A DNA stretch of 64,000 bases from assembly GCF_030549525.1 (NCBI RefSeq), contig NZ_CP130831.1, forward strand, positions 1-64,000. Direction: 5' to 3'. The notes beneath the pieces were generated by a model that was given only the letters and a program-made list of their open reading frames with translations, was not told the DNA's origin and made no database searches. Shown here piece after piece: positions 15,927-39,698 of this stretch. This DNA comes from Stenotrophomonas sp. 704A1. GTDB lineage: Bacteria > Pseudomonadota > Gammaproteobacteria > Xanthomonadales > Xanthomonadaceae. Each line of letters begins with the position of its first letter. Within the stretch, counting starts at the first letter, position 1. Position numbers and translations under genes: made by a program.

Positions 15927-16199
15927 ATGCAGCACCCCCCTCGCAACGCCCAGGCCGCCATCAAGGGCCGGGGTTCCACGTCCCATCTTGCGGGGCGTTT
16001 CGAAAGCACCGTCAGCGAGGCGGTGGACGACGGCTGGGCAGTGGACGAAAGCGAGGAGTTCCTCGCCCCACGCCTGCGCACCGAAGTACGCGCGGAGACC
16101 GCCCGCAGCATCATCAGCCGCAACACTTCCCCGGACGTCGGCTTCAGCCAGTCGGTGAATCCGTATCGCGGCTGCGAGCACGGTGCGAACGTGCCGTAA
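15927..16199 (+). pseudogene. 5' part of the host PA0069-family radical SAM gene, cut by the island
   Basis: The first 86 codons match the N-terminus of the element-borne copy (shared [12 protein letters not shown] and [10 protein letters not shown]). Homology stops after the first cluster cysteine (C83) at about position 16183; four foreign codons and a stop follow. The missing 3' part resumes at 37875 on the same strand. The product here cannot bind an iron-sulfur cluster. The start is ATG at 15927 after GGAGGGCACC. Confidence 0.92.
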
Positions 16200-16206
16200 G
16201 TGCTCA
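16198..16206 (+). repeat. Subterminal island repeat, left outer copy
   Basis: AAGTGCTCA lies about 15 bp inside the left junction. The reverse complement occurs at 16249-16257 and near the right end at 37842-37850. These may be recombinase binding sites. Confidence 0.45.
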
Positions 16207-16248
16207 CGGCAATTATTTATATAAAACAATCACATATGCTCATTCTGA

Positions 16249-16257
16249 TGAGCACTT
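16249..16257 (-). repeat. Subterminal island repeat, left inner copy
   Basis: TGAGCACTT is the reverse complement of the left outer copy. It overlaps a small hairpin, TGCTCAT with ATGAGCA. Confidence 0.4.
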
Positions 16258-16446
16258 CGCACACTGAATGCAACCCGCGCCTCTCTGCTAAGGCCAATGG
16301 AACGCCTCCTAGTTCGTGCCCGCACTTGGAAGTACCCAACGAGCCGTCTGGCTCAACGGCGCCTGCCTTGAAAGGTGTGGATAACTCTGGGGGCAATGGG
16401 ACGTCGAATTCAGCTCAGTCCCTACGGCTACATGAATCCCCGTCAG

Positions 16447-16477
16447 TTGCGCTGCCTGTGGTTAGCAATAATACTAA
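16447..16477 (+). promoter_or_regulatory. LexA-controlled promoter of the island radical SAM gene
   Basis: A second TTAGCAATAATACTAA (16462-16477) has the same -35 (TTGCGC, 16447-16452), the same 16-bp spacer and the same -10 (TAATAC, 16469-16474) as the host promoter. The substitute gene is thus wired to the same SOS control. Confidence 0.85.
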
Positions 16478-16504
16478 TTGCTCGCTGTAGGGCTTGGGGG
16501 AGAT

Positions 16505-17596
16505 ATGGAACAAGACGCTCGCAAGGTCCAGGCGCCAATCAAAGGCCGAGGCTCCGCCTCACGCGTACCGAGCAGGTTCGATACGACAGCGACAGTCGGA
16601 ATCGATGATGGCTGGGAATCAGTCTATGAAGATCTTCGCGAGATGCCCTCGCTGAGGACTGAGGTAACTGAAGAGCGGGCGCGGAGTGTGATCAGCCGGA
16701 ACACTTCACCTGATGTTGGCTTCAGCGCATCGGTCAATCCCTACAGAGGTTGTGAACATGGATGTGTCTACTGCTTCGCCAGACCCTCGCACGCCTACCT
16801 GAGCCTATCGCCGGGTTTGGACTTTGAGACGAAGCTCTTTGCCAAGACGAATGCCGCAGAGCGATTGCGTAGTGAGCTGAGCCGCCCGAGCTACAAATGT
16901 GCAGCAATCGCTCTAGGCATCAACACAGATGGCTACCAGCCTATCGAAAGGAGTTATCAGATTACCCGCCAATGCCTTGAGCTCCTGGCCGAGACGCGCC
17001 ACCCTGTGAGCTTCGTCACCAAGAGTGCGCTGATCACTCGCGACATCAACCTGCTCGCAGCGATGGCGAAGGATCGTCTGGTCACGGTCTACTTCTCCGT
17101 GACCACACTTGATCGAAAGCTGTCAGCTAAGCTCGAGCCCAGGGCAGCGGCACCGCATGCGAGATTGAGGGCGATGGATGCACTGCATAGAGCCGGCGTT
17201 CCGGTAGGAGTACTGGTTGCCCCAGTAATTCCCCGCATCACTGACAACGAGCTCGAGGCGATCCTCGAAGCAGCTCATGCCCATGGAGCGCGGGCTGCAG
17301 GGTATGTGTTGCTGCGCCTACCCAACGAGATCAAGGAAATCTGGAAAGAATGGCTGGAGCTGCACTATCCGGATCGGGCGGAACATGTGCTGAGCCTGAT
17401 GCGCCAACTGCATGGTGGGAAGGAATACGACTCTACCTTCGGAACGCGCATGCGTGGTACCGGGCCCTTCGCAGATCTCCTGGCGCAGCGTTTCAAGAAG
17501 GCACACCGGCAGCTTGGCTTCACAAAGCTCCCGCCTCTGAACACAGAACTGTTCCAGCCTCCTAGGGAGTACTCCCCACAAGGCCAACTCTTCTAA
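16505..17596 (+). CDS. Complete PA0069-family radical SAM protein carried by the island
   Basis: The 363-residue protein resembles spore photoproduct lyase-like radical SAM enzymes. The cluster motif is C83-EHG-C87-VY-C90, followed by PSHAYLSLSPGLDFETK, and the C-terminus is FGTRMRGTG...YSPQGQLF. It is a clear but diverged homologue of the host gene that the island has cut. The base composition is lower in GC than the host copy. ATG at 16505 follows GGGGGAG. The substrate of the family is not established; SOS control and the lyase-like fold suggest DNA damage handling. It probably replaces the lost host function. Confidence 0.92.
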   Translation: MEQDARKVQAPIKGRGSASRVPSRFDTTATVGIDDGWESVYEDLREMPSLRTEVTEERARSVISRNTSPDVGFSASVNPYRGCEHGCVYCFARPSHAYLSLSPGLDFETKLFAKTNAAERLRSELSRPSYKCAAIALGINTDGYQPIERSYQITRQCLELLAETRHPVSFVTKSALITRDINLLAAMAKDRLVTVYFSVTTLDRKLSAKLEPRAAAPHARLRAMDALHRAGVPVGVLVAPVIPRITDNELEAILEAAHAHGARAAGYVLLRLPNEIKEIWKEWLELHYPDRAEHVLSLMRQLHGGKEYDSTFGTRMRGTGPFADLLAQRFKKAHRQLGFTKLPPLNTELFQPPREYSPQGQLF

Positions 17597-17696
17597 CGCC
17601 GAAAAGAGCGATCGCTGCAGGCATCTAGGGACGAAACGGTCTCACGCCGTGAGACAGGCTGAGCCTAGCCTTCCAACGACGAAGGAGAGCAAACCT

Positions 17697-18029: not shown

Positions 18030-18339
18030 CGGTAGCTAGAGGTCAAAGGACCTCGGACATGGTTGCCTACAGGCAAAAAAGTTGAAGCGTTGCATGCTGC
18101 AGCACCGAGTCAGCTCCGCAGCGAGCGCACAATCTGCGCACTGGCCTTGGAGAAAATGCGACCTGAGTCGCACAAACTTCGTTCTGTGAAATCGGTCTAA
18201 GAACGCATCCTTCCTTCTGAGCGTAACGCATTGAGTTCCCACAACCAACTGTTCGAAGATTGAGGCTGTCTGAGCGATCTCCGACAAGAATTTTTCCAGT
18301 CTTGAACTGGGAACAATGGTGCGACTATGTTCTCGCGCC
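18030..18339. other. Gene-free region before the integrase remnant
   Basis: No supported gene lies in these 310 bases. A minus-strand open frame at 18036-18341 has no recognisable domain or ribosome binding site. Confidence 0.5.
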
Positions 18340-19456
18340 ATGACGATCTATGACGCTGAAATCCGGCACGTAAAAGCGCCAAAAGCAAAGGATCAAAGCG
18401 CTGGGAAGCGCACACATTCAAAACGATCCGAAGATGCCGGCACACCGCTACCAGCAGGTTTCAGCTTCCTGGTCAGCCGAAACACGGCAATGGCCATCGA
18501 GCCAGCGTTTGAGTTTCTTTGCTATGAAACCCTGACCAGGGAAAAGCGACCGTCTCTCGTCTGTTCCCCTGCATCAGCAAAAGGCTGGGCTGAGGACCTC
18601 ATAGACTTCCATCACTACCTCGATGCGAGAGACAGAACGTTCGAGCTGATCGATGAAGAGCTTCTTCAAAACTATGCATACGATCTAAACAACAGCATTT
18701 CGCCTGTGACCTTTAGGAAGTTTGCGGCAAGTACGATACGTCGCCGCTGGTCAACATTGACCAAGGCAATCCGGTTCTGCCAGAGCCGTGGCTACCTGAA
18801 AAAGCCGCTTCGCTATCGTAGAGGTGCAGACGCCACAGGGCACCGCTCTCAACCTCGACGTTGGAGTGAAGCTTCCGGGTCTCAATGAGGCGGACGAACA
18901 CGTTACCGCGCTGCATATAGACACACTCAATGGCGTGTTCGATCAGCTTGGGCCCAGTCCCACCCATGTGGAGGACGGGGAACTCATCATCAACGATGGC
19001 CTGACAGGCCCACGCCTTATGGCAGAGCTCTGCAGGCATGCTGGACTTAGAAGAGCAGAAGTCTGCGATCTGAAAGCTCAGACAGTTCTGAACGCGATCA
19101 CGAATGGAAAGGACAACTTTGTTCAAGTCGCGATCCAGGTGATGGGCAAGGGATCGAAGAAGCGGAAGGTGCCGGTTCCCGTTTGGCTTCTCAACGCGCT
19201 CAAAAGATATGCCGTGGAGGAGAGAGCCCGCCTACTTGGGCCGAGGACAGCCAGGGGCGGAATGGACCACGGCTTCCTCTTCGTTCAAAGGACCAAGAAC
19301 TCGCGCTACAAAGGCAAACCAGTCACTCCCGAAACACTCAATCGCGTCTTCGCCAGAGCGCGAGACGAGTATCTGAAGAAGCTGGCAAGCAAAGACGACA
19401 TAGCTTATTCGCCGCCACGCGGGATCTGGCAAGAAGCTGTAGTCAGACTTGCTTAG
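18340..19456 (+). pseudogene. Decayed tyrosine recombinase/integrase
   Basis: The first part (ATG at 18340) looks like the core-binding domain of a phage-type integrase. At 18799-18804 a run of five A residues shifts the frame; with four A residues the reading would go straight on as LKSRFAIVEVQTPQG. The second part has the catalytic arginine region LRRAEVCDLK and the lysine region KGSKKRKVPVP, but the frame ends soon after AYSPP, exactly where the HxLRHT box should begin, and the catalytic tyrosine is absent. A deletion seems to have joined it to a convergent gene. The protein is very likely inactive. Confidence 0.8.
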
Positions 19457-20098
19457 TGTTCCCAATGCTTGCTTGTGAGAGAGCCAGTCTGTTCGACTTC
19501 GTATCTCGCGGCTCAGCACGGTGACTGCCGCCGATTCATCGCCGCCGGTGCTCAAGAACTGACTGGCGGCTCCTCGAATTGATGACCAAAGCACATACCG
19601 CTTGCGTCCCAAGCTCAGCTGAAGCCAGCCTTCTTCCTGCACGCGTAAGATCTCCTCTGCGTGCTGAATCCCGATTCGATGCTTGCGTAGCAGTGACACG
19701 AGATAGGCGGCAACTTCTCGGTCGGAGAGCTGACGCCAAAGCCACTGACGGTCGTGTGCTCCAAGCGAGGGGCACCAGGCTCTCAATGCACGGGTTAGCG
19801 AAGCACCCAGATCGTCTGGCAGCTGACTGCTTTCCCGATAGCTCCAGCTTATAGGGTCGTAAAGAGAGCGCCTTGTAGAACCGTTTGACGAGCCCGTCTC
19901 AGCCAGAACCCCCGCTGCCTTAAGGAATAGCAGCAAGTGCTGCGCAGTAGCTGGGTCAGCGGCTACAGGTGCGGAGATCGAAGTCGAGCGCTCAAGCGCA
20001 CACCACGCGCATGCGTAGAACGGCCCAAGCGATACCAGTAGCGCATCGAGGTCTGGCCACGGGGAGATGAGGGTCTGTTGGTCACGCCCATAGATCAC
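19232..20098 (-). CDS. Unknown protein, probably 3'-truncated, convergent with the integrase
   Basis: From GTG at 20098 the frame encodes about 225 plausible residues, including DREVAAYLVSLLRKHRIG and SLGRKRYVLWSSIRGAASQF. Beyond about 19415 it is only the antisense of the integrase gene, so the true C-terminus was probably lost in the deletion that also cut the integrase. I do not recognise the family. It is divergent from the XRE regulator (120-bp gap). It may have been an accessory of the recombinase or a regulator. Confidence 0.5.
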   Translation of the reverse strand: MIYGRDQQTLISPWPDLDALLVSLGPFYACAWCALERSTSISAPVAADPATAQHLLLFLKAAGVLAETGSSNGSTRRSLYDPISWSYRESSQLPDDLGASLTRALRAWCPSLGAHDRQWLWRQLSDREVAAYLVSLLRKHRIGIQHAEEILRVQEEGWLQLSLGRKRYVLWSSIRGAASQFLSTGGDESAAVTVLSREIRSRTDWLSHKQALGTLSKSDYSFLPDPAWRRISYVVFACQLLQILVSRSGEDAIECFGSDWFAFVARVLGPLNEEEAVVHSAPGCPRPK

Positions 20099-20218
20099 TC
20101 GATCCCCGGCAGTTCAACCAGCTCCGATGCTAGCAAGCTGCCGGGAACCCGTCCACACAATTTTCATGTATTCGCTGCCTCGGCCATAGATTCCATTCCG
20201 CCCCTACAGGCGGACCCG

Positions 20219-20494
20219 ATGGCTACTAAAACGATCTACCAAAGTGCATACCTTCGGTTGGTCGGCCAGCTTCGCGAGCGACGTGAGTCCCTGGGGATCA
20301 GTCAAGCCAAGCTGGCTTCCCATCTGGGATGGCCCCAGCAGAGAATTTCTTCGGTCGAGTCCGGCGCACGGCGCCTGGATGTTCTGGAGTTTTGTCTCAT
20401 CGCCTCTGCCCTGGGGCTCTCCCCTACCGAGGTCTCTGAGCACGTATCGAAGCTGGTGAAGAGCGTGCGTGCCAGCCAGATTAAGGACAGATAG
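20219..20494 (+). CDS. XRE-family helix-turn-helix transcriptional regulator
   Basis: The 91-residue protein consists mainly of one Cro/C1-type helix-turn-helix: LRERRESLGISQAKLASHLG, then WPQQRISSVESGARRLDVLE. ATG at 20219 gives the usual length for a small XRE repressor; the frame is open further upstream but without domain support. It is divergent from the unknown gene ending near 19.4 kb and may control it. Confidence 0.85.
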   Translation: MATKTIYQSAYLRLVGQLRERRESLGISQAKLASHLGWPQQRISSVESGARRLDVLEFCLIASALGLSPTEVSEHVSKLVKSVRASQIKDR

Positions 20495-20753: not shown

Positions 20754-20823
20754 CAGGGACTAGCGTGGGGAGCGTTGCGCTAGCCCCGCTCCTCAGGAGA
20801 TCCGCCTATCCATGCAGACAGCG

Positions 20824-21732: not shown

Positions 21733-22314
21733 TTACCCCTCATGGAACCTATGACGTTGCATAACGGCATGCAAGTCGTTGAAGAGCTCATCGGACATAC
21801 CCAGCTCACTAAGATAGCGACCTAGATGGCAGACATAGAAGGTGTAGCTGCCCTTCTGGCTCATCGGTATGTAGAGTATGCCGGCCCGCCTAATGTGCTT
21901 TGAGTACTCATCAAAGTGCGGGTGTACGATCCTAAACTTCTCAGGATCATTGGGGTAAGCCACAGGAACGTAACCCTTGACGGGTGGGTCGACATGAACC
22001 TCCCGGCTACTCTTGTACTCATTACAATCAGGACAGCAGACGCACAGGTTGAGTGGCTCAAACATGTATCCTAGGTACATCGCCTTAGGAGCAATGTGTT
22101 CGACGGGAGAGCCTGCGGCCGACCTGATCGATATGGGGTTGAGGCAGTACACACACGCCAAGCGTTGCACGCGTCGGTAATGATCTCGGACTTCCACACG
22201 GACCGGCTCAAGACTGGCGTCGGACCACATCGTATGGTCGTATGCTGGATGAGCACGTACGGTCGCAATTCTATTGAGCGCATCCGCGCTAAAGACAACA
22301 GGGTCGTCAATCAA
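21733..22314 (-). CDS. ptuB: HNH endonuclease, PtuB-like (Septu defence)
   Basis: The 193-residue protein has the HNH plan C54-VY-C57, EH at 72-73, LNLCVCCPDCN ending at N98 and K101, with two zinc knuckles. In Septu systems PtuB is the nuclease that works with the ATPase PtuA against phage. The TTG start at 22314 overlaps the ptuA stop (TTGA) and follows GGGAGGAGCG, so the pair is translationally coupled. Length is within the range of PtuB proteins. Confidence 0.8.
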   Translation of the reverse strand: MIDDPVVFSADALNRIATVRAHPAYDHTMWSDASLEPVRVEVRDHYRRVQRLACVYCLNPISIRSAAGSPVEHIAPKAMYLGYMFEPLNLCVCCPDCNEYKSSREVHVDPPVKGYVPVAYPNDPEKFRIVHPHFDEYSKHIRRAGILYIPMSQKGSYTFYVCHLGRYLSELGMSDELFNDLHAVMQRHRFHEG

Positions 22315-23648
22315 GTCCGCTCCTCCCTGAGAAGCGCCGAGAGTGAGTCGATCAACGCTATCAGCTTGTCGCTAGGGTCAAGCTTTGAGCGCATCTCGAA
22401 CAGCCAGTCGATTTCGCGCTTCATTTCGAGCGTGAGTGGGCGGCCGACGCGCACTTGGGCGATGAGATTGAAGCATACCCTGGAGATGTACTCGTTCATC
22501 ATGCCGGGCGCATCAAACAGCTCCGCCAGTTGGAAGTCTGCGGAGCGGCGTTGAAACTGCGATGCAGGATAGAGCTTCCTTTTGCGTAGGTGACAGATGA
22601 AGGAGCCGGGGCCACTAAGCCTAGAGATGATCTGAGGCGAGTGCGTGGCAATCACAAACTGGCAGCCGCTGTAATGTGAGAACGCGGACTGCAGGAGCGC
22701 CATGAAGCGCTCCTGCCACTCTGGGTGGAGACTGATTTCGGGCTCGTCTATCAGTATCAGAGAGTGGTCTTGGATGTGTCCTGCGACGCCGAGCATCAAC
22801 ACAAGCAAGCACTGCTCACCAGAGCTTGCCCGCTTAAGGCTGAAGGGCTGCCGTCCATTTTTCTCCACCTCGATGTCCATCAGCCGAAGCAGATTCTCGT
22901 CGAACAACCTTAGAATTGCGCCAAGATGCTTTGGTTCTATCACCGCCCCGCTAAGTGTTGCGACGCTACTTCGGAAATCAACTGTGAGACGCAACGCGCC
23001 AGGCGCATCCATAAGGGCAGAGGCGAAGTGGAGGTCCCTCAAGACTGTCCGTAAGCTTTCGGTCGCCTCAAGGATGGATGCGACGCGGGTATCGAAGCTG
23101 TACCTGTAGGCGCCAAACTTGAAGGAGGTTCTGTCACCCCTGTGACGGGTCGACGTCTCATTCTCGCGCGAGCGTTCAAACTGCGGCTTTAAGACAAAGT
23201 GGAACACTGGAGAGAACTTCAGCGAATCCAGAACACCCAGTAGGTTCAAGCTAGGTGGAGCTTCGGACAATTTAGATAGCAATCCGCGAGCTGCGGAAGA
23301 CAGCAGCGATACAGCTGATGAAGCGCCATAAATACCTTCACCGCGCATGCCAACATAGCGGTAGTTCTTCTGTGCTTTCGCTTGTCGCCTCGGCGGGGCA
23401 GGAAACTTGTCGAACGGACTGGTTGATGCCGCTATGACCACAGGCAAGGGGGAGGCGCTAAGGCGCCGAGCACCCATTAGGTTGTAGTCGCTGATCCGTC
23501 CCCGAGCAATGTCCGACAACAGCCGGCTTTTCCCAACGCCATTCTCCCCCACAACAACTGTATATGTGTTGTCCCTTGCACTGACTTCAGCCTCGTCGAC
23601 CAGACGTACCGGACCACCGTCGTGGTAGACCTCGAGTACTCGTTCCAT
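22311..23648 (-). CDS. ptuA: AAA+ ATPase, PtuA-like (Septu defence)
   Basis: The 445-residue ABC/OLD-like ATPase has Walker A GENGVGKS at 34-41, a signature segment SSGEQCLLVLML, Walker B LILIDEPEISLHPEWQ and the H-loop ATHSPQI. Immediately upstream of an HNH gene with a 4-bp overlap, this matches the PtuA-PtuB architecture of Septu. No reverse transcriptase is nearby, so it is not the retron version. The start is ATG at 23648. Confidence 0.82.
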   Translation of the reverse strand: MERVLEVYHDGGPVRLVDEAEVSARDNTYTVVVGENGVGKSRLLSDIARGRISDYNLMGARRLSASPLPVVIAASTSPFDKFPAPPRRQAKAQKNYRYVGMRGEGIYGASSAVSLLSSAARGLLSKLSEAPPSLNLLGVLDSLKFSPVFHFVLKPQFERSRENETSTRHRGDRTSFKFGAYRYSFDTRVASILEATESLRTVLRDLHFASALMDAPGALRLTVDFRSSVATLSGAVIEPKHLGAILRLFDENLLRLMDIEVEKNGRQPFSLKRASSGEQCLLVLMLGVAGHIQDHSLILIDEPEISLHPEWQERFMALLQSAFSHYSGCQFVIATHSPQIISRLSGPGSFICHLRKRKLYPASQFQRRSADFQLAELFDAPGMMNEYISRVCFNLIAQVRVGRPLTLEMKREIDWLFEMRSKLDPSDKLIALIDSLSALLREERT

Positions 23649-24199
23649 GGGGGACCCTCCCTGTCTATCGTCGGAATGTTGGCAGATGTTGGATGGCTAT
23701 CCAAGATCGAGCGCCGTCCACTCCGGGCACCACATTGTGGGGATGGGATCAAGTCAGAGGAGTGTAGGTCAGTCTTTGGCCGGAGCCGCGTATGGTCAAA
23801 GACATATAACTGGTCCTTTGGCAACGCCCATCAGGACCAGGTCGTTTCAAGCTGCGAAGCGCTAAGGATGCACTGCGTTGAATGCGAGCTTTCCTCCAGT
23901 TGGCACGCGGCGAGCGGTATAAATGGCTACTACTGGTCGGCGTCAGCTCCTAAAACACCGGACATGGCTTGATGGCACCTGTCTCTTACTCACCAGGCGC
24001 CCCGCCCAAGCACCGGCGCATCCCGGCCGGCTACTCCTGGAAAGATCGATAGGGTAGGCGGAGGTTGACCCGGGAGGCATGGGCTATACCTTGGGGACAG
24101 ATCCCGGGCACTCTACATACATCCCCCATCGGGAAGGCATAATCTAGCGGGGGAAGAAGATCTCGACCACCTGCTAATTCAGTCGACGGGGAGAATGAG
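23649..24199. other. Gene-free region between ptuA and the four-helix protein
   Basis: These 551 bases separate two divergent genes and must contain both promoters. Open frames on either strand here lack domain support. No clear operator was seen. Confidence 0.5.
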
Positions 24200-24835
24200 G
24201 TGTCTGCAAAAGGAGGACTGCTTAGGTGGATCGGAGCCTTTGTAGCTTTCGACATGGCGCTGCTGACATATGCACTGACGCCCGATTGGCGGTGGGGTGC
24301 CGCCGAGCCGAAAATGATCATCGGCGGGCTGACGACAGTGCTGTCGCCCCCCATGCTGTACATGATGACGTCAGTGTTGTCACCGGAGCTGAAGGCAGCG
24401 ATCGTCTTCTGGAAAACTAGGTATCACTTGCCTGGCTATTCGGCATTCTCGAGGCACCTGAAGGAGGATTCGAGAATAGACGCCGACGCAGTTGCGGCAC
24501 GACGGGGTCCTCTTCCGTCGGACCCGGATGCCCAGCAACGCCTTTGGTACAAGATTTACCGCGACCATCGCAATGATGAGGCCGTCGTTGATGCCAATCG
24601 TCGCTATCTCACTTTTCGGGATCTGGCAGTAGTCTCACTCATGGTAACCGTGGCGGCTCCCATCACACTCACTGTCTTTGATCTCGGCTTCGCCCGCGGT
24701 CCCGTCGCAGCAGTTTTCTGTCTTCAGTACCTTGGCGCTAGTGTCGTGGCCCGCGTAGCCGGTGTCCGTCTGGTTCGAACTGTTCTAGCCATTGAGGGAA
24801 CCCAACCAGGTTCCGCTGCTCCTGGCGCGGCATGA
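24200..24835 (+). CDS. Membrane protein with two helix pairs, unknown function
   Basis: The 211-residue protein has membrane helices at about 8-26 and 38-58, a hydrophilic middle of about 80 residues containing LPGYSAFSRHLKEDSRID and QQRLWYKIYRDH, and a second helix pair at about 144-187. GTG at 24200 follows GGGGAG. It is convergent with the WYL gene (12-bp gap). Its place in a defence island next to a ubiquitin-like operon suggests a membrane effector, but this is inference. Confidence 0.7.
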   Translation: MSAKGGLLRWIGAFVAFDMALLTYALTPDWRWGAAEPKMIIGGLTTVLSPPMLYMMTSVLSPELKAAIVFWKTRYHLPGYSAFSRHLKEDSRIDADAVAARRGPLPSDPDAQQRLWYKIYRDHRNDEAVVDANRRYLTFRDLAVVSLMVTVAAPITLTVFDLGFARGPVAAVFCLQYLGASVVARVAGVRLVRTVLAIEGTQPGSAAPGAA

Positions 24836-24847
24836 TCGCCCCTTCAT

Positions 24848-25750: not shown

Positions 25751-25820
25751 CTCTGCATTGTCCGATGGAGGCCACTAATTTTTATGACCTCGTATTTTTT
25801 CGTAGTATAGTGCGTCCAAC

Positions 25821-25837
25821 GGCCACCAGGGGTGGTC
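25821..25837. promoter_or_regulatory. Candidate operator in the WYL-MBL divergent region
   Basis: GGCCACC-AGG-GGTGGTC is a 7-bp inverted repeat with one mismatch, 23 bp before the MBL start codon and downstream of an AT-rich stretch (25778-25812) that could hold both promoters. WYL repressors bind such repeats. Confidence 0.4.
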
Positions 25838-25859
25838 AACACGATGAGGCGCAACTCGC

Positions 25860-29284: not shown

Positions 29285-30315
29285 ATCGTTTTACGTGCGG
29301 ACGAGCTTCCAAACCTGCTTTCGCTCACTCCCATCCGACTTGTCTGCGTGACCGAGCCTGCGCCAAGCTCAGGTATCTCTGAGGTGGTTGCCTACTTCAG
29401 CCGGCGAGGATAGGCCCTCCGGCTCCCTCGGCCTGCAAGCATCGCTGAATCCCCTGAGCCCGGCCGGGCGCGGCACGGGCTCCAATGGCGGAAGCGATTT
29501 AGGCGCTAACCGGCGCTCAATTGCCTTAGCTGAAGGATTGGCCATCAGCAATCTGCGGAGCGCGACATACTCTGGATTGCTCTATCTGCTGCCAGTAACG
29601 CAGGAGACCAACAAGTTCTGTAGCGCCTCGACCTAGTCGAGTTGTTCATTCATGCCAATCACCGGTATCCCTATCGGAGAAGCACGGACCCCTGCAATGC
29701 GATCGAGCCAGGGGCGTTCGCAGCCATACCCTGAGGAACGCATACTATGAAGTTCATGATAATTCAACAATAAAGTGTGCCCGAAGCTCCCGAGCTACTT
29801 CGCTCGGGCTGCTCGGATCGATACAGGGCCGACGCCAGGAAGTACGTTCGGATGATGGCACTCGCCCTTGGCTGGACGGCAATCCTGACAAGCATTCAGT
29901 GGTCACCCAGCCCCCCTAGGGAAGTTACGGTCTTCGCCCTCTCTCGAAACAAGACGAAGGCGTCAGAAGTACTCTTGTCTCTGAACTCTGACCTTAGCGG
30001 TGCCGGGTACGCGCCACCATTCGGCCCCGCGACATCTAGGCTAGGCGGCACTCGCTCAGAGTGAATATTGGGCTTAATGCTGATAAGTAGCGACAAGAAA
30101 CCCCAGTCTCCTCCTTCTCACAGATGATAATTGATGCTGGTCCTGCGCTAGCCACCGTTACGTTCTTCTTGCCATCCCATAGCTTACGCACTGGGGGCTG
30201 TCGGAGATTTCCTACAGCACGATGCGGGGAGTCCCTATGGCCACGACGCTCGGGATCCGGTGCAAACTCTCAGCGGTTCATGAACGAGTCGTTCATCTAC
30301 TGCCGGGGGACAGGA
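29285..30315. other. Gene-poor spacer between the conjugation operon and the RHS genes
   Basis: About 1 kb without a supported gene. Open frames at 29388-29636 and 29777-30064 have neither a good ribosome binding site nor a known domain. A 17-bp palindrome, ATGAACGAGTCGTTCAT (30280-30296), sits 20 bp before the RHS start codon and could be an operator. Confidence 0.5.
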
Positions 30316-32655
30316 ATGGTTTCCAGAAAATGGTGCGTAGCGTCAGCAATTGCATGCCTCGTCTGCAGTACTGCAGGGGCCCAGGATCGGGTCGAACCCG
30401 AGTCGCAATATGCGAACAAGGTTGGCAAGGCTCAGCACACTGGGCAGCTGGATGAAGGTTCGTTTGGTGAAAACGTCTCCCTTTTCAACGGGCAACTCGA
30501 CTTCTCGATAACGGATATCACCATCCCGGGCAACAACGCTCTGTCTGTAGCGCTCCGTCGCAAGCGGACAATCAGTGAGCGTTACCTCCATCAGAATGCC
30601 AGACCTGGCGACCTGGCCGGCTTCTACGATTGGGATTTGGACGTGCCCTACCTGGAAGGCATTTTCAGTTCCCGTGGCTGGGTGGTTGGGGCAGACGATG
30701 ATGCCAGCCGCTACCAGCGCTGCTCATTGCAGAAGAAGCCCTTTATCGGGGAAAGCACGCCCTACCCGGAGGACCTGATCTGGAACGGATATAACCTGCA
30801 CCTGCCTGGGGAGGGTGATGCGCAGTTGCTGGTTGCCTCGGCCAACATCCCAATGCCAAGCGATGGGAAAAGCTATCCTTGGGTGACCGTTGGTGACACA
30901 CGCGTGCGTTGCTTACCGCAGACTCAGAACGGTGTTCCTGGCGAGGCTTTTCAGGTCGTTACTCCGCAGGGAATCACGTACTCCTTGAACTGGGTCGTCA
31001 GCCGCGAGATGCCCCTGTACAGTTACAAAGACAACCCCCTAGCGCCCACCCGCTATCTGTCGCGTAGCCATGTTTTCTTCATGGCCACCCGCGCTGAGGA
31101 CCGCTTCGGCAACTGGGTGAACTACGGCTACACAGGCGACAAGCTGACTTCTATCAGTAGCAGCGACGGCCGCAGTATCAGCATCACCTATACTGGGGAG
31201 CGCATCACCAGTGCGACGGCCAATGGCCGGACTTGGACATACCAGTATCGTGAGCCGGGAGCGCTGGGGTCGCGGCTTGACGGGGGGCTAGCCGCCGTCA
31301 TTTTGCCGGATGGCTCCCGATGGACCTATTCACCCAATGGAACCTTGCGCCCACCGATCTTCGGCCCCACGCCGGAGGGCTCTGAATGCGATCCCCGCAT
31401 GCCCGATGTGCTGGGACCCTATATCTACACCGTGACCCACCCGGCCGGGGCGACGGCCACTTATACCCTGAACTATAGGTACTTCTACCGCGCCACTGAC
31501 ATCAGTCCCTGCTCGTCCAGCGAGCGCGCGCCTTATGTGGCGGTTTGGAACCTGCAGCAGCGCTCAGTCACCGGGGCCGGACTATCAGGGATGACCACCA
31601 CCTACGCTTATGAAGGCACATTCGGGCCGCAGGGCCGCTGGACCACGGTAACGCAGCCCGATGGGTCCACGAACCGATATCGGTTCGGCGTACGACCGCG
31701 CCAAGACGAAGGCCGTTTGCTGGAAAGCCGGACGGTCAGCACAGCGGGAACGACCCTGGAAACGGTGAACTATGAGTACCTCGCTAAGGAGCAGGCGGCC
31801 GGGCAGTTCGTGCCGCTTGTGGGGCAGTCCCTAAGCGCCATCACCCCCACAGAAGGTCTGGTCGAGCCGCAGCGGCTCGTCACGACTGTTCGCGACGGAA
31901 CGCAGTACGTGGAGCGAGTGGATCGCTTCGATGCTTTCGCACGCCCGGTGGAAACATTCAGCGGCAGCGATTTGGGTGTCGCAAAGGACAGAATCACCTA
32001 TCACGACGGCCTGGGAAGCTGGACGTTGGGCCAGAAGGCGGTCGTGGCGGACATCGATTCTGGCGTGGAAAGCTCACGCATAGAGTTCAACGCGCAGTCG
32101 CTGCCGTACAAGACCTGGACGTTCGGCAAGCTTACCTCCACGCTTGCATATGATTCACAGGGCATGCTCAGTCAGAGCATGGATGGCAACGGCAATACCA
32201 CCCACTTCCAGGACTATTACCGCGGGACTCCACGCACGATTCTCTATGCAGACGGTACCGGCATTACCGCGCTGGTGGACGGTAACGGCTGGCTTTTGAA
32301 CCGGACCGACGAGACGGGGGCAGTTACCAGCTTTGGCTACGATCCGATGGGTCGCCTGACCCAGATCAACTATCCCAGCGGCGACAGCGTGGGATGGAAT
32401 GCCACAACCTTCATACGCCAACGCACCGCCAGCACGGAGCGGGGTTTGGCACCAGGTCACTGGCGGGAGCTCGAGGCGACTGGCAGTGCACGACGCATAA
32501 CCTACCGCGATGTGCTGCTCCGCCCTGTGCTGTCTGAAGAATACGACGCGACAAATCGCGGCGACACGCTCCGACAGGTGATTAACAGTTATGACTATGC
32601 TGGCCGAGTGACCTTCACCTCCTATCCCGGCCGCTATCGCATGGGAGAGCCGTGA
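30316..32655 (+). CDS. Secreted RHS/YD-repeat protein, N-terminal partner
   Basis: The 779-residue protein has a Sec signal peptide (MVSRKWCVASAIACLVCSTAGAQ region), the opening segment typical for Xanthomonad RHS proteins (SLFNGQLDFSITDITIPG) and many YD repeats such as YGYTGDKLTSISSSDGRS. It lacks the conserved core end and any toxin. It stops in the overlap TGATG with the next gene, so the two RHS chains are coupled. ATG at 30316 follows GGGGGACAGGA and starts the signal peptide exactly. Confidence 0.85.
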   Translation: MVSRKWCVASAIACLVCSTAGAQDRVEPESQYANKVGKAQHTGQLDEGSFGENVSLFNGQLDFSITDITIPGNNALSVALRRKRTISERYLHQNARPGDLAGFYDWDLDVPYLEGIFSSRGWVVGADDDASRYQRCSLQKKPFIGESTPYPEDLIWNGYNLHLPGEGDAQLLVASANIPMPSDGKSYPWVTVGDTRVRCLPQTQNGVPGEAFQVVTPQGITYSLNWVVSREMPLYSYKDNPLAPTRYLSRSHVFFMATRAEDRFGNWVNYGYTGDKLTSISSSDGRSISITYTGERITSATANGRTWTYQYREPGALGSRLDGGLAAVILPDGSRWTYSPNGTLRPPIFGPTPEGSECDPRMPDVLGPYIYTVTHPAGATATYTLNYRYFYRATDISPCSSSERAPYVAVWNLQQRSVTGAGLSGMTTTYAYEGTFGPQGRWTTVTQPDGSTNRYRFGVRPRQDEGRLLESRTVSTAGTTLETVNYEYLAKEQAAGQFVPLVGQSLSAITPTEGLVEPQRLVTTVRDGTQYVERVDRFDAFARPVETFSGSDLGVAKDRITYHDGLGSWTLGQKAVVADIDSGVESSRIEFNAQSLPYKTWTFGKLTSTLAYDSQGMLSQSMDGNGNTTHFQDYYRGTPRTILYADGTGITALVDGNGWLLNRTDETGAVTSFGYDPMGRLTQINYPSGDSVGWNATTFIRQRTASTERGLAPGHWRELEATGSARRITYRDVLLRPVLSEEYDATNRGDTLRQVINSYDYAGRVTFTSYPGRYRMGEP

Positions 32656-35600
32656 TGTACATGATTCGACACCTCCTCGATGCCTTGCGCAGCCACTGCG
32701 CAGCTTCGGCACTGCTGGCAATCTGCTTGCTTGGGGTCAGCCCATCGGTGTTGGCGCAGGCCTGGGTGCGGCTAACCGGGCCTGCACAGACCGTCTACAC
32801 TGCGCCGGCAACCGTAAGCATGACGGTCGAGTTCGGTAGCACCAACGGCGGCCCCAAATCGGAATACATCGACAATGTCCGCTTGACGCAGAACGGCACC
32901 CTAGTTACCAACTTCGCCTACGGCACCTATACCGTGCAGGGCCTGCCGCCCGGCACCTACGTCTACATGCTTACCGCGCAGGGCATACGCAACCTCAATG
33001 GTGAGGAAGTGGTGCGGTCGCTATCCAGTGGACCGGTGACCATAACGGTGAATGCACCGCCTGCGCCCATCGATTCGGCTGAGAAGGTGACCGCATCTCT
33101 TTCCACCAATCGCGTTGTGGCCGGACAACCCTTCAATGTCAGCGTGACGATGAAGAACACCGGTGAGACGACTTGGACGCCTGAAGGAGGCTATGCACTA
33201 GCCATGCCTCAGGGCGGCTGGGGTGTAGGTAGCATCCCGGTGTCTGGACCTGTGGCCCCGGGCCAGACTGCCACATTCAACTTCACTGCCACCCCCAACT
33301 CGGGTGCCACCAATGGCGGGTGGTACGGCTTTCAGTTGCAGATGCAGCGCAATGGCGCCTGGTTCGGCTTGGCCACAGGGCAGATTGGCTTCTTTGTCTG
33401 GCAGCCAGTCAACAATGCCGATTTCGAAGCCCAGTCGGTGCCAACGTCTATGAAGACCGGTGTCGCCCAGGTGGCTACGGTGCGCATGAAAAACACCGGA
33501 GATATCGCTTGGCAGCCGGGTAGCTACTGGCTGGGTTCGCAGAATCCCACCGACTCTACCGTATGGGGCGCGGTACGTACTGCGCTGCCACGGACGGTTG
33601 CGCCTGGCGAATCCGTGGACATACCCGTTACGCTGCAGGCGCCGCCTACGCCAGGCACCTACAACTTCCAGCGCCAGATGTGGGCGGATGGTAAGGGCTG
33701 GTTCGGCCCTGCCACGCCAAATGTGGCGATCAACGTCAGTGCCCCGGTGAACTCGGCGCGAATGGAGGGCGGTCCGATGCCGCTGGGCATGCAGACCGGA
33801 AGCTCTACGCAAATGCGCCTGCTGGTTCGCAACAATGGTGAGACAACCTGGACCTCAGCCGCCGGCTATGCATTGGCATCGGAAAATCCTGCCGACAACA
33901 CGGTCTGGGGCATGCAACGTGTTGCGCTACCAAGCAGCGTGCCGCCTAACGGGCTGGTGGAGTTCGTCTTCACAATCACTGCTCCCTCCACGCCGGGTAG
34001 CTACCCGCTGCAGTGGCGGATGAACCAAGAAGGCGTCGGCCGGTTCGGTGAGTCCACGCCGAACACCAACGTGCAGGTAACGCTGCCTCCGGTGAAGGGC
34101 ACATGGAAGGAATACGATGCGCTGGGTCGCGTTACATCTACCGCCCAAGACACAGACGATGGACTGGCCATCACTGTATCCACCTACCAGCCAGGTAATT
34201 GGCAAACCACGGTGGATCCGCTAGGCCACACGACGCAGATCCAATACCAAGCCTTTGGTACCCCGGCGCAGTCGAATCCCATCGCCATTCGCGCACCGGA
34301 AGGATCATTCACAGACGTGCTACGTGACCGCTACGCCCGGCCCACCGCTGTGATCCGACGCAACGCAGACAGCAGCGTGCAGCTACGCCGCAGCTTTGCC
34401 TATGGCGAGGGCGGAACTCTGTGCAAGCTCATCGAGCCGGAAGCAGGTACGACGGTAACCGCCTATGATGGCGCCGGTAACCTGGCCTGGTCCGCGAGTG
34501 GCCTCAACCTGCCCAGTCCAGACAACTGTGATCTGACAGCTGCACAGGGCTCCGGGCGTCAGGTGACGCGTGCCTACGATGTCCGCAACCGTATCATCAC
34601 CCTGACTTTCCCAGACGGCAACGGCAACCAGAGCTGGAGTTACACCTCTGATGGGTTGCCGGCGGAGGTGCAGACCGCAAACGACGGTGGTGCTAACCAC
34701 ACTATCAACACTTACACCTACAACAAACGTAGGCTGCTGGTGGGGGAATCCACATCCCAGGCCGGATGGTTTACTTGGGCACTAGGCTATGCCTACGACG
34801 CCAACGGCGCACGATCGGGCATTCAGTATCCAAGCGGAACCTACATTGCACTTGACCCCAATGCGCTCGGTCAGGCAACGCGGGTAGGCAACTACGTCCT
34901 CGGCGTAACCTACCATCCCAATGGCAGCCCGGTGGGCTTCTCCTACGGTAACGGCGTCAGGTTCGAGCAGGCGTTTAACATCCAGCAGGCGCCCAGCAGC
35001 ATCGGTGCTCTTCCGAGCGTCAGTAGCTTAGCGTATGCGTATGATCGCGTCGGCAATGTCACCCGCATCACTGACATGGTCAGCGCAGGACGCGACCGCC
35101 AGATGAGCTATGACGGTTTGGGGCGGCTAGTGCAGGCAACGTCCCCCACCTTTGGTGGCGACGGAAGCCTGCTATATACCTATGACGTGCTGGACAACAT
35201 CCGCAGTGCGCGGGTTGCGAGCGGCAAGGACCACACGTACGTATACGATGCGAAGAACCGCCTGACCAATGTCATGTCCAGCCAAGGCGCCACCACCATC
35301 GGCTTGGCCTACGACGCTCAAGGCAATCTCGCACTCCGCAACGGCCAACCTTTCATCTTTGATATGGGCAACCGTCTGCGCTCTGCTCCTGGACCGGAAA
35401 ACTACCGCTATGACGCGGAGGGTCGTCGCGTACTGGCGTGGTTGCAGGGCAGCGGTTCGATCCTATCGATGTACGATGGGGACGGTAAGCTTCGCCGTCA
35501 GCAGAGCGAGCGCGACGGCAAAAGTCGCGAGTACCTTTACCTTGGCGGTATGCTGGTAGCTACCTTGGAAACCGGTACTGATGGCGTGACTCGTCCAACC

Positions 35601-36440
35601 TACCAGCATCTGGATGCGTTGGGATCTCCGGTGGCCGTGACCGATGCCTCTGGAACTGTGGTCGAGCGCAGCTACTACGAGCCCTATGGCGAACTACGCA
35701 ATCGTCCCCTAACCGATGGCATCGGCTACGCCGGACATGTTTCGGATAGCGCAAATAGCCTGTCCTACATGCAGCAGCGCTACTACGACCCGAGCATCGG
35801 CATCTTCCTGAGCGTGGACCCGATTACGGCTCTACAGAAGCCCGCCTCGCACTTCAATCGCTACCGCTATGCCAATAACAATCCATACAAATTCATCGAT
35901 CCTAACGGAGAGGCGGGGCGTGTGGCATGGCTAGTTCGGCTGACGGCGAATCAGGCGAACAAGGTGGCCCGCATCACACAAGAGCAAGCAGTTGCTGCAC
36001 GCCGGGCGGGGCAGAATGTCGTTGCAGATCGCAGGCAAGTGGCAAGTCAGATCGAAACAGCTGCGCACGGAAGAGCAGATCAGTTAAAGCATGCGGCTCA
36101 TGAATTGGAAGATGGCAGCAAAGGCTTGCCGCACTATCAAACAGAAGGTATTAGAGGGCATTCGTTCTGGGGCAAACTGAGTGTGGCTGCGCTGGCGGCA
36201 GCGGGCGCACTTGAGCAGGTGGCAGAGGCAGCAGAGTACATTCCGGACCCTACGCCGCGACCGGCTGAGCAGGCCGATATAGATAGATGGAACAACTTGA
36301 TGGGAACGATCAATAAGTCCACGGGCATACCTATGCCAGGCGTCAAGGTCGGGCAGGACGGGGGATTCCAAGGCTACTTCAATGTTGGGGGAAGACTTGA
36401 TTCCAAGAAGCTCGACGAAAAGCTAAATGGAAATAGATAG
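32655..36440 (+). CDS. RHS-repeat toxin with Ig-like domains
   Basis: The 1261-residue protein has its own signal peptide (cleavage near SVLAQ, residue 35). At least three NBR1-type Ig-like repeats lie at about 145-475 (TGETTWTPEGGYALA, TGDIAWQPGSYWLG, NGETTWTSAAGYALA). RHS repeats run from about 482, and the core end is RYRYANNNPYKFIDPNG at about 1082. The last 175 residues are a variable, probably toxic, tip containing LPHYQTEGIRGHSFWG; I cannot assign its activity. ATG at 32655 overlaps the previous stop. The next gene is a likely immunity gene. Confidence 0.85.
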   Translation: MYMIRHLLDALRSHCAASALLAICLLGVSPSVLAQAWVRLTGPAQTVYTAPATVSMTVEFGSTNGGPKSEYIDNVRLTQNGTLVTNFAYGTYTVQGLPPGTYVYMLTAQGIRNLNGEEVVRSLSSGPVTITVNAPPAPIDSAEKVTASLSTNRVVAGQPFNVSVTMKNTGETTWTPEGGYALAMPQGGWGVGSIPVSGPVAPGQTATFNFTATPNSGATNGGWYGFQLQMQRNGAWFGLATGQIGFFVWQPVNNADFEAQSVPTSMKTGVAQVATVRMKNTGDIAWQPGSYWLGSQNPTDSTVWGAVRTALPRTVAPGESVDIPVTLQAPPTPGTYNFQRQMWADGKGWFGPATPNVAINVSAPVNSARMEGGPMPLGMQTGSSTQMRLLVRNNGETTWTSAAGYALASENPADNTVWGMQRVALPSSVPPNGLVEFVFTITAPSTPGSYPLQWRMNQEGVGRFGESTPNTNVQVTLPPVKGTWKEYDALGRVTSTAQDTDDGLAITVSTYQPGNWQTTVDPLGHTTQIQYQAFGTPAQSNPIAIRAPEGSFTDVLRDRYARPTAVIRRNADSSVQLRRSFAYGEGGTLCKLIEPEAGTTVTAYDGAGNLAWSASGLNLPSPDNCDLTAAQGSGRQVTRAYDVRNRIITLTFPDGNGNQSWSYTSDGLPAEVQTANDGGANHTINTYTYNKRRLLVGESTSQAGWFTWALGYAYDANGARSGIQYPSGTYIALDPNALGQATRVGNYVLGVTYHPNGSPVGFSYGNGVRFEQAFNIQQAPSSIGALPSVSSLAYAYDRVGNVTRITDMVSAGRDRQMSYDGLGRLVQATSPTFGGDGSLLYTYDVLDNIRSARVASGKDHTYVYDAKNRLTNVMSSQGATTIGLAYDAQGNLALRNGQPFIFDMGNRLRSAPGPENYRYDAEGRRVLAWLQGSGSILSMYDGDGKLRRQQSERDGKSREYLYLGGMLVATLETGTDGVTRPTYQHLDALGSPVAVTDASGTVVERSYYEPYGELRNRPLTDGIGYAGHVSDSANSLSYMQQRYYDPSIGIFLSVDPITALQKPASHFNRYRYANNNPYKFIDPNGEAGRVAWLVRLTANQANKVARITQEQAVAARRAGQNVVADRRQVASQIETAAHGRADQLKHAAHELEDGSKGLPHYQTEGIRGHSFWGKLSVAALAAAGALEQVAEAAEYIPDPTPRPAEQADIDRWNNLMGTINKSTGIPMPGVKVGQDGGFQGYFNVGGRLDSKKLDEKLNGNR

Positions 36441-36445
36441 CTGAG

Positions 36446-36820
36446 ATGATCTCCTATCGGATAATGATCGAAGGCGTTTTCGTTCACGCCCCTGAGCTTG
36501 AGGGGCGTGTCGGCGGCTTCCATACAACCTTCTTCTTGAGTGCAAACAATGCCGATAACGCGGTCATTCGGGCAAGCAAGCTGCTTGCCGAGCGAATGCA
36601 CAATAACGAAGTAACGGGGCGTGAGAGGGGGCTCTTGAGAACGTACTGCTGGGTTCACAATTTGTGGGAAGTCGCAGAGGAAAGTCCCTCTCGACGGCAG
36701 AATGGCGACTCAGGATTTACATTCTTCCGGATTGGTCCACTGGAGCGTTTCTACCTGGGCATTCGTCGTCTCTTCTTTCAGCGATACAAGCCATGGCTGC
36801 TAGTAGCGCAATCGGTGTAG
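36446..36820 (+). CDS. Probable immunity protein for the RHS toxin
   Basis: The 124-residue soluble protein starts 5 bp after the RHS stop. Position, small size and lower GC than the core chromosome fit an immunity gene for the preceding toxin tip. No family is recognised. The C-terminus RLFFQRYKPWLLVAQSV is rather hydrophobic. Confidence 0.65.
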   Translation: MISYRIMIEGVFVHAPELEGRVGGFHTTFFLSANNADNAVIRASKLLAERMHNNEVTGRERGLLRTYCWVHNLWEVAEESPSRRQNGDSGFTFFRIGPLERFYLGIRRLFFQRYKPWLLVAQSV

Positions 36821-36881
36821 CTACCAGATCGATCAATAGCGTCGACGTCCTTTAGGTATTTTGTTCTCACAGTGGATATTT

Positions 36882-37349
36882 ATGCTCGCCGCGCTTGGAA
36901 TTGTTGGAACCATAGCATCACTTGTTAGTCTTCTTATCGCAGCTCCAACTGCTAGGTCTAGATTGGTGCATGTTGTATATGCGCTATTTATCACCGCTTT
37001 AGCTCTGGGAATGGCTTCCTATCAAAAGAAGGCCTCTGACGCGGAGCAGAGGGTTGTCGAGATGCGTAAGATCGAGCGAGAAGCCAGTGCGCTCTTGTCG
37101 GGTTTTGACTTCACCACAAGTGGATCTATGTCCGGATTTATGCTGGCAGCTCTCTCATTCTTAGAGAAGCACAAGGCGGAACTTCCTGATACATATCAGC
37201 GGGCGCAGACACTGTGTGAGAATACAGGTTGCCTGAAAGCTAGCAATGGAGACTACAATTCAAGCATGGAGCACTTCAGAGATCTGCAGGATGCCTCCTC
37301 CGCAATGAAATACCTCGTTCAAGGGATCGCCAAGAGTGAGGGGGGATAG
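36882..37349 (+). CDS. Membrane protein with periplasmic domain, second immunity candidate
   Basis: The 155-residue protein has two N-terminal membrane helices (about 2-22 and 29-47), a short coiled segment (KKASDAEQRVVEMRKIEREA) and a cysteine pair (CENTGC) in the C-terminal domain. The start may be ATG at 36882 or in-frame TTG at 36861. It follows the first immunity candidate by 61 bp. Base composition is AT-rich. It could protect against a membrane-acting toxin, or be unrelated. Confidence 0.6.
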   Translation: MLAALGIVGTIASLVSLLIAAPTARSRLVHVVYALFITALALGMASYQKKASDAEQRVVEMRKIEREASALLSGFDFTTSGSMSGFMLAALSFLEKHKAELPDTYQRAQTLCENTGCLKASNGDYNSSMEHFRDLQDASSAMKYLVQGIAKSEGG

Positions 37350-37874
37350 TTCATCTAAGGCGACGCCAGATCCTTTTCTTTAGTGACTCCAGAATCTCGA
37401 ACGTCCGCGCTCGGTCGAAAGCAGAGCGAGGGAATGAAGGTCTGTGGGGCAGAAGAGTTCTGCTCCTCGCCCGTCCCGGCCATTCGAGAGACCCCATCGG
37501 AGCCTTCGGTGCCAGGTGCCCAACGATTGGGGTCAGCTTCCGCCGAGCGTGATGCCTGAAGTGGCGGTAATCTAAAAGTGTCTCTTCAATGAGCTCCGCC
37601 CTTGGCGGACAGCGAGATATTGTTCGCACCGGTATGGTCAAAATTGATCATTGATGCAGTCAGTTCGGCCTGACGCGGCAAAAATTGCGGAGCGAGAGCG
37701 GTTCATTCTCAATTGCCCGATCACTGGACCCATGTCCCGACTAGCTGGGCTAACCTACCCTGTATTGGCTTGGGCTAAGGGACAAGAAGGTGGGATTCTG
37801 AGGCTAGGCTGTGGCGACACCAGCTGCAGGCGATCTCATGCTGAGCACTTTCTCTCGAACACATATAATGTTGC
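37350..37874. other. Right end of the island, no supported gene
   Basis: Open frames on both strands (37351-37641 minus, 37651-37914 plus) show no domain and no good ribosome binding site. The inverted subterminal repeat TGAGCACTT is at 37842-37850. Host radical SAM coding resumes at about 37875. Confidence 0.55.
37842..37850 (-). repeat. Subterminal island repeat, right copy
   Basis: TGAGCACTT is the inverse of the left outer copy and lies about 24 bp inside the right junction. Confidence 0.45.
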
Positions 37875-38729
37875 TGCTCCTACTGTTTCGCCCGCCCCTC
37901 GCATGCCTATCTGAACCTGTCGCCTGGCCTGGACTTCGAGACCAAGCTGTTTGCCAAGACCAACGCGCCGCAGCTGCTGCGCAAGGAGCTGTCGAAGCCG
38001 GGCTACGTGCCGCAGCCGATCGCACTGGGCATCAACACCGACGCGTACCACCCGATCGAGCGCACGTTCAAGCTGACCCGCCAGTTGATCGAAGTGATGC
38101 TGGAAACGAAGCATCCGTTCTCGCTGATCACCAAGAATGCGCTGGTCGAGCGCGACATCGATCTGCTCGCTCCACTGGCGGCTGAGAACCTGGTCAGCGT
38201 GCATTTCTCGGTGACGTCGCTGGATCCGCATCTGTCGGCAAAGCTGGATCCGCGCGCCTCCGCACCCCATGCGCGGCTGCGTGCGATGAAGCGTCTGCAC
38301 CAGGCCGGCATTCCGGTGGGCGTGATGGTCGCGCCGGTGATCCCATGGATCAACGACAGCGAGCTGGAAGCGGTGCTGGAGGCTGCACACGATGCCGGCG
38401 CCAGCACTGCCGGTTACGTACTGCTGCGCCTGCCGCTGGAAGTGGCGCCGCTGTTCCGCGACTGGCTCGATACCCATCATCCGGATCGCGCTGCGCACGT
38501 GATGAGCACCATCCAGCAGCTGCGCGGCGGCAAGGATTACGACAGCCGGTTCGGCACGCGCATGCGCGGCCAAGGGGTGTACGCAGAGCTGTTGAGCAAC
38601 CGCTTCAAGCTGGCGCGCAAGCGGCTGGGCTTCAATGCGCAGAACAGCCACTGGCCGACGCTGGACTGCAGCCGGTTCCAGAAGCCGCTGCCGCCGCAGA
38701 AGGATTCGCCGCAGGGGTCGCTGTTCTAA
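37875..38729 (+). pseudogene. 3' part of the host PA0069-family radical SAM gene
   Basis: Reading from 37875 gives CSYCFARPSHAYLNLSPG, that is, the second and third cluster cysteines and everything after them, up to DSPQGSLF and the stop. Joined to the 86 codons at 15927 it would make a normal gene. On its own it has no start at the break. An internal ATG at 38007 would give a product without the cluster motif, so it should be inactive. Confidence 0.92.
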
Positions 38730-38766
38730 AAAATTACGGGGCGTACGGAGACGACGCCTTAATCGC

Positions 38767-39694: not shown

Positions 39695-39698
39695 TTCT

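Follow-up and report, generated by a model that had tools for sequence, protein, structure and literature searches.

A degraded GInt-like island splits a PA0069-family radical SAM gene in Stenotrophomonas sp. 704A1 and carries a complete, diverged copy of it

The principle that a mobile element may compensate for the gene it interrupts is already published for the recA mobile element (RME) of Vibrio cholerae S24, which disrupts recA and carries a complete diverged copy of it, and for which the authors propose that function is kept (Rapa et al., PMC4405046). It has also been suggested for the integrative element Tn6283 of Vibrio, whose authors propose that it makes up for the loss of its target bcp and compare it to the RME (PMC5991714). 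Genomic islands with three integrases (GInts), which are characterized by ginABCD, have been reported at the ends of genes, between genes or at a 5' end, and their targets are probably not fully inactivated (Bardaji et al. 2017, PMC5385486). Here we describe an island in a stretch of 64,000 nucleotides from Stenotrophomonas sp. 704A1 (contig NZ_CP130831.1, positions 1 to 64,000; hereafter the window), which cuts a PA0069-family radical SAM gene within the codons of its CxxxCxxC motif and contains a full-length diverged homolog of the same gene. This arrangement is very probably a case of target-gene complementation by a degraded GInt-like element, the copy being an exchangeable rescue module. 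Its recurrence in many related bacteria suggests that elements of this kind last because they compensate for the damage they cause.

Like the RME, the island and its relatives hit a predicted SOS gene mid-gene at a fixed site and usually bring a complete, diverged copy from another lineage with a LexA-type box, whereas the RME has recA as its target, other integrase genes and ends with 9-bp inverted repeats. The target here being a PA0069-family radical SAM gene, the island does not belong to the recA mobile elements. Tn6283 has a different target too, and compensation was inferred there from growth rates. The split gene and its copy are arranged in the window as follows:

15886-15900, + strand: LexA-type box TTAGN6TACTA upstream of the host gene (pattern scan)
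15927-16183, + strand: 5' part of the host PA0069-family radical SAM gene, up to the first two bases of codon 86
16184-37873, + strand: island, 21,690 bp (comparison with uninterrupted relatives)
16462-16476, + strand: LexA-type box of the replacement copy
16505-17596, + strand: replacement copy, a full-length diverged PA0069-family radical SAM gene (363 amino acids)
37862-37880, + strand: right junction, with element sequence to 37873 and the host-type spacer CTGCTCC at 37874-37880
37874-38729, + strand: 3' part of the host radical SAM gene, its frame still open

The break in the host gene separates cysteine 1 (codon 83) of CxxxCxxC from cysteine 2 (codon 87): the left host sequence GAGCACGG has its last base at 16183, the second base of Gly codon 86, and the host restarts at 37874 with the third base of this codon, followed by TGC TCC TAC TGT. 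A first-pass annotation, made from the letters of the window alone, had placed the break at about 16183 and the restart at about 37875, which is right to within a base, and comparison with uninterrupted relatives confirmed its placement of the cut between the two cysteines. Beyond the break, the interrupted frame runs through four foreign codons to a stop at 16197-16199. PA0069-family matches in the whole genome (one contig, 4.69 Mb) comprised one full-length gene, the copy (16505-17593), and two host pieces (15930-16223 and 37872-38726). On the NCBIfam profile NF033668, the host 5' piece covered positions 1-71, and the match of the 3' piece, of which the part from 38007 on was scanned, spans positions 116-347; the copy matched positions 1-348 of 348 with 511.6 bits against a cut-off of 360, which places it in the PA0069 family. 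It keeps the motif intact as CEHGCVYC and shares 59% identity with the first host part and 63% with the second, in agreement with the full-length diverged homolog reported in the first pass. The motif TTAGN6TACTA, which we take to be the LexA box of Xanthomonadaceae, has only two exact sites in the window, one before the host gene and one before the copy, and its mean in 100 shuffles was 0.00; the SOS label of the gene is a prediction from this box.

A survey of related genomes identified insertion at the same codon in 22 genomes belonging to three families of the order. Since these genomes are related, their counts are not independent. A full-length copy accompanies 20 of the 22 insertions and is stop-free in 19 of these 20, so that 20 apparently show the combination seen in the RME, an element that interrupts its target mid-gene and itself contains a complete, diverged version of it. 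In the window's genus Stenotrophomonas (code g1), all 91 genomes searched had a full- or near-full-length PA0069 gene. The gene was split in 10, all of which carried a full-length copy of the island type, and a second full-length copy was found in none of the 81 unsplit genomes; the association is therefore not due to chance (Fisher p 1.6e-13, a guide only as the genomes are related). Island-type genes were the sole full-length type in the 10 split genomes and in G033, and these 11 copies share 81-100% identity with the window copy, host-type genes showing 62-66%. The host 3' piece is truncated, with a stop, in G072, and the host pieces of G077 lie on two contigs.

Outside the genus, a scan of 395 genomes of the family, with at most five candidates scored per genome, gave a PA0069 match in 324. 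Re-examination of 40 chosen genomes, including every genome beyond Stenotrophomonas that had at least two matches, revealed seven more splits, with copies in Xanthomonas pisi (G447), X. nasturtii (G351) and three Pseudoxanthomonas genomes (G350, G359 and G399) and without a copy in G307 and G312. A profile search with the third recombinase of these elements (TR3, described below) returned 13 loci, three of them in new genomes, namely a metagenome-assembled genome (MAG), Frateuria sp. Soil773 (host halves on different contigs) and Rhodanobacter sp. Soil772, all split at the same codon and all with a full-length copy. The right-junction pattern alone, which is blind to the copy, picked out 11 of 398 genomes of the order (the 398 did not include G307 and G312, whose elements have no copy); a full-length copy was present in 11/11 (one with a stop), including the new genomes G979 and G1033. 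The copy of G979 presumably lies inside the element; its 3' piece has two stops, and a host 5' piece was not found in this genome. Among 369 genomes of the class, the strict right-junction pattern, which variants would escape, occurred only in the window's genome.

Junctions were compared in 17 split genomes aligned with uninterrupted relatives and then in 20 left and 19 right ends, to which G1033 added one of each. GAGCAYGG is the common left arm; G351 and G1033 have GAACAYGG, and G007 has an altered form. All 21 left junctions show T as the third base of codon 86 and then six element bases, the codon being GGT in 20 and TGT in G007; intact Stenotrophomonas sites read GGC at this codon in 14 of 19. 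At the right end, an element motif (ATATARTGYTG in Stenotrophomonas, related motifs elsewhere) precedes seven bases with a codon of the host kind, which is TCN in Stenotrophomonas (9/9 junctions, 19/19 intact sites), AGT in Xanthomonas (both junctions, 2/2 intact sites of normal type), AGY in Pseudoxanthomonas (code g17; 3/3 junctions, with 18 AGY and 17 TCN among 35 intact sites), ATC in Rhodanobacter (ATN in 28 of 29 sites of the genus) and GTC in G312 (GTG in two intact relatives); for G307 and the MAG there was no comparable intact relative. With T on the left and a host-kind codon on the right, the element is therefore best taken as 16184-37873, and the 7-bp spacer as element-derived at the left (TGCGAAC, 16184-16190, in the window) and host-derived at the right, where the island ends in ATATAATGTTG. 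One spacer each from element and host would seem to fit staggered cuts by tyrosine recombinases. GInts are characterized by imperfect direct repeats of 10-17 nt at their ends; inspected by eye, the left and right attachment sites (attL and attR) have few bases in common here, and the ends are precise. In all 21 left junctions a stop terminates the 5' piece exactly four residues after codon 86, even between lineages whose recombinases are <35% identical, which reflects either a constraint of the recombinase site or selection for clean termination. In S. bentonitica VV6 (G007; L050 near 1481), the left arm reads GAGTGTTGT; this left junction, with the TGTTG of the right end, hints at a sequence such as a circular joint could give.

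The layout of a GInt, three tyrosine recombinase genes (TR1, TR2 and TR3) with a ginD-like small gene at one end, was found in relatives with an intact module, among them the loci L041, L108, L112 and L115. In S. maltophilia EA1 (L041), the copy is followed by a 296-codon gene, a NIF/HAD-like gene, TR1 (436 amino acids; Phage_integrase, 7e-14), TR2 (633 amino acids), TR3 (688 amino acids) and a 168-codon small gene on the strand opposite to the trio. The same trio occurs in other lineages at 25-43% identity and starts within about 300 bases of the left junction in G350, G359, G399, G351, G447, G307 and G312. The small gene was assigned from its position and size alone; it is encoded on the opposite strand in Stenotrophomonas, G307, G350, G351 and G447 and on the same strand in G312, the MAG and Frateuria. 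Residues R228, K261, H360, R363, H392 and Y402 are invariant in 7 sequences of TR1, which matches Pfam Phage_integrase; R319, K360, R467, H491 and Y501 are invariant in 18 TR3 sequences, and only R448, H472 and Y482 in 7 TR2 sequences. The catalytic set is full in TR1, mostly present in TR3 and partial in TR2. TR2 and TR3 gave no Pfam match, and structure prediction provided no proof of their fold (TR3: predicted local distance difference test, pLDDT, 76 and no significant Foldseek hit; TR2: pLDDT 48). As in published GInts, there is one fixed target, the cargo varies, and a small gene accompanies three neighboring tyrosine-recombinase-like genes near one end (about 430, 600-630 and 680-700 codons in these elements). 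Unlike them, the present elements cut mid-gene and usually bring a complete replacement. The likeness to GInts is one of layout and motifs. Recombinase modules of four genes in this arrangement were also observed on the plasmids pUP202 (Methylomonas, L149), where the module is cargo-free and lies between traU and traN, and pSES189 (Sphingobium, L150). In the window's own island this layout was not found, the genes being decayed, and one recombinase remnant is left:

18316-19456, + strand: decayed tyrosine recombinase TR1, in two frames (18433-18807 and 18812-19405)

These frames are 50-53% identical to TR1 of S. maltophilia EA1; neither TR2 nor TR3 had a match in the island, nor TR3 in the whole genome. 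The island is accordingly predicted to be without working recombinase genes and, at present, not self-mobile. TR3 had no match in the genomes G000, G017, G054, G033 and G979, all five of which keep an intact copy, as does G072, with only a weak partial TR3 match on another contig.

The copy behaves as a module of varying position. It lies 0.3-1.2 kb inside the left end, ahead of the trio, in Stenotrophomonas; about 6 kb in, directly after the trio and the small gene, in X. nasturtii and Pseudoxanthomonas; at a depth of about 8 kb in X. pisi; in inverted orientation close to the right end in Rhodanobacter, Frateuria and the MAG; and about 6 kb from the right end, not inverted, in G1033. In X. 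pisi, TR3 is 87% identical to that of X. nasturtii and 30% to that of Stenotrophomonas, but the copy matches the one in Stenotrophomonas sp. PS02298 at 98% identity, which indicates that copies have been exchanged between recombinase lineages; this exchange and the differing positions are the grounds for proposing re-acquisition of copies. In a tree of 98 sequences based on the part after the insertion site, the split host halves of Stenotrophomonas, Xanthomonas and g29 each group with intact relatives from the same genus, and the Pseudoxanthomonas g17 halves group with each other, near the one intact g17 row, whose place is unresolved. The 19 copies require three label changes, and the MAG copy is on a long branch. 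A separate origin of each copy type was considered and is not established by the tree alone.

The ratio of nonsynonymous to synonymous substitution rates (dN/dS) was determined between copies. For the Stenotrophomonas/X. pisi type, 9 usable pairs gave 0.000-0.032 (another 2 were saturated, and several had dS >1); for the Pseudoxanthomonas/X. nasturtii type, 3 pairs gave 0.064-0.104; intact host genes gave 0.031-0.085 in 6 pairs. These ratios point to strong purifying selection on the copies, in which CxxxCxxC is kept in 19/19 checked and 18/19 are stop-free. Of 19 copies examined, 16 are preceded by a LexA-type box, which is missing from those of the MAG, Rhodanobacter and Frateuria. An exact box within 150 bases was found at 12 of 23 unsplit host loci (6 of rescue type) and 2 of 8 split host genes examined, counts in which start sites may be off. 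Recoding for immunity, in which the copies would have lost the attachment site and so escape insertion, found no support: several (e.g., G447 and G350) keep both arms exactly, and the G312 host was hit although it shares its Val codon with the Xanthomonadaceae copies. In G350, G359 and G399 the copy reads GTT, and 35/35 intact sites of that genus have Ser codons.

Target-gene complementation, as proposed in the first pass, remains the best reading because 20 of 22 insertions come with a copy, the copies are conserved, and they are intact where the recombinases are gone. On this reading the island belongs, in degraded form, to a family of GInt-like integrative elements, and the recombinases of this family would insert the element at the one site in the CxxxCxxC codons seen at all junctions. 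As the interrupted frame shows, insertion ends the host protein four codons on, before cysteine 2. The element brings a complete gene of another lineage, which has its own promoter region and in most cases a LexA-type box. That the copy is conserved, retained and repeatedly associated with the insertion suggests that the cell keeps PA0069 function through it. Carriage of the copy would be a selected trait, which makes a mid-gene site in a useful gene tolerable and loss of the copy costly; it would be exchangeable between elements, and after decay of the recombinases it would remain as the sole complete PA0069 gene of the cell, as in the window. The first-pass idea that a metal-cluster motif accounts for a stable site is plausible, since the DNA there is conserved across genera.

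Several observations weigh against this reading. Of the 20 full-length copies, the one in Frateuria has an in-frame stop, and the elements of G307 (Pseudoxanthomonas suwonensis DSM 17175) and G312 lack a copy altogether, so that the first-pass refuting condition of islands at this site without the homolog applies to 2/22 and the copy is not obligatory. Under the scoring limit given above, 71 of the 395 family genomes had no PA0069 match, and the gene is therefore dispensable in some lineages. Most of the split 3' halves have stayed well conserved (compared with intact relatives, 10 pairs gave dN/dS 0.040-0.171), and 13/13 checked are open, which may mean only that the insertions are recent. 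A single origin of all copies was not firmly excluded by the tree (approximately unbiased, AU, test, p 0.056), nor were the two Xanthomonadaceae types, those of Stenotrophomonas and Pseudoxanthomonas, separated (p 0.55); the copies may therefore stem from one or from several independent captures.

The last of these points bears on whether the gene was captured once by an ancestral element and simply inherited without any rescue function, which the AU tests would allow. This is very improbable in view of the strong purifying selection on the copies, their retention where recombinases were lost, their differences in position and orientation and their exchange between recombinase lineages. The open 3' halves similarly bring up a working two-piece enzyme that makes the copy redundant; hardly any weight can be given to this idea, as the cut falls inside CxxxCxxC, the 5' half is stopped at the same codon in 21/21, the 3' piece is truncated with a stop in G072 and has two stops in G979, and G033 retains only a remnant of residues 1-46 with no 3' half found.

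It is rather unlikely that the copy is fitness cargo itself, a damage-inducible version of the gene carried even without host disruption. LexA-type boxes on most copies, no exact box at 11/23 unsplit loci and 6/8 split genes, and protection against UV reported for the RME (PMC4405046) all agree with it, whereas the lack of a second full-length copy in the 81 unsplit genus genomes ties the copy to a broken gene; the two ideas are not mutually exclusive. Many copies keep the arms GAGCAYGG and TACTGYTTYGC, as would be expected of an attachment-site device, an internal target helping recombination with new hosts. There is little to recommend such a role, given that copy and host gene share only 53-69% protein identity, the junctions are found where the element ends, outside the copy, and 0/21 island-type copies are split.

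Complementation may have an end state in which the rescue copy becomes the resident gene. In G033, the copy lies between the remnant and the normal downstream gene. In six genomes with a Xanthomonas code (G289, G410, G226, G441, G429 and G180), the sole PA0069 gene occupies the normal slot, flanked by the CLS/PdxJ pair and the 2OG oxygenase, but is inverted relative to the normal gene of G153. Five of these genes (L152, L151, L156, L157 and L160, in the above order) group with Pseudoxanthomonas-type copies in a quick tree (Shimodaira-Hasegawa-like approximate likelihood ratio test, SH-aLRT, 97) from which G180, whose gene is broken in two frames, was left out, and a LexA-type box was present in all three upstream regions examined (L078, L081 and L083). 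With the gene masked, no host remnants were detected beside the lone rescue-type genes of these six genomes, G256 and G295; broken host gene pieces lie about 75 kb away in G295, and G347 has a weak remnant match (residues 9-28, E 0.022) near the expected start of the old gene. These arrangements fit replacement of the resident gene by a rescue copy, which is not proof of it. The full scenario, in which a GInt-like family with one mid-gene site repeatedly gains, swaps and repositions a rescue copy that after decay replaces the resident gene in place, is held tentatively, with slightly more doubt than belief.

A PA0069 target of such elements was not described in the titles or abstract openings of the open-access literature searched. 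Relative to that literature, the target, the GInt-like machinery with a complete replacement, the naked relatives at the same codon, the exchange of copies between elements and the possible end state appear to be new. The system offers many natural replicates of a rule so far known from single cases, namely that a useful gene can serve a mobile element as insertion site provided the element supplies the gene itself. It also makes testable how dependence on an island arises and provides a route for the in-place exchange of chromosomal genes between genera. The anchored island of the window brings two anti-phage systems, a Septu-type PtuAB pair and 6A-MBL (21733-29284), among the following cargo:

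20078-20494, + strand: helix-turn-helix protein
21733-22314, - strand: PtuB-like HNH protein, Septu-type anti-phage system
22311-23648, - strand: PtuA-like ATPase, Septu-type anti-phage system
24848-25750, - strand: WYL-domain protein
25860-27035, + strand: MBL-fold protein, 6A-MBL anti-phage system (NF058524, 413.4 bits, cut-off 220)
26888-29284, + strand: cap2_3 (E2/E1/JAB) protein, 6A-MBL anti-phage system (NF058523, 548.8 bits, cut-off 320)
30124-36440, + strand: two Rhs-repeat genes

At the same site in S. maltophilia EA1, the element has a gene that resembles the window's PtuB by eye (L041 12978-13559). G050 has an intact host gene and, about 1 kb on, a second, partial 3' piece of host type (L043 4709-7302). 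Directly downstream of the 3' part of the host gene, G054 has a 2OG oxygenase gene, and in the window an Rhs fragment and an Ntox37-domain protein lie just 3' of it, outside the island (38635-39995).

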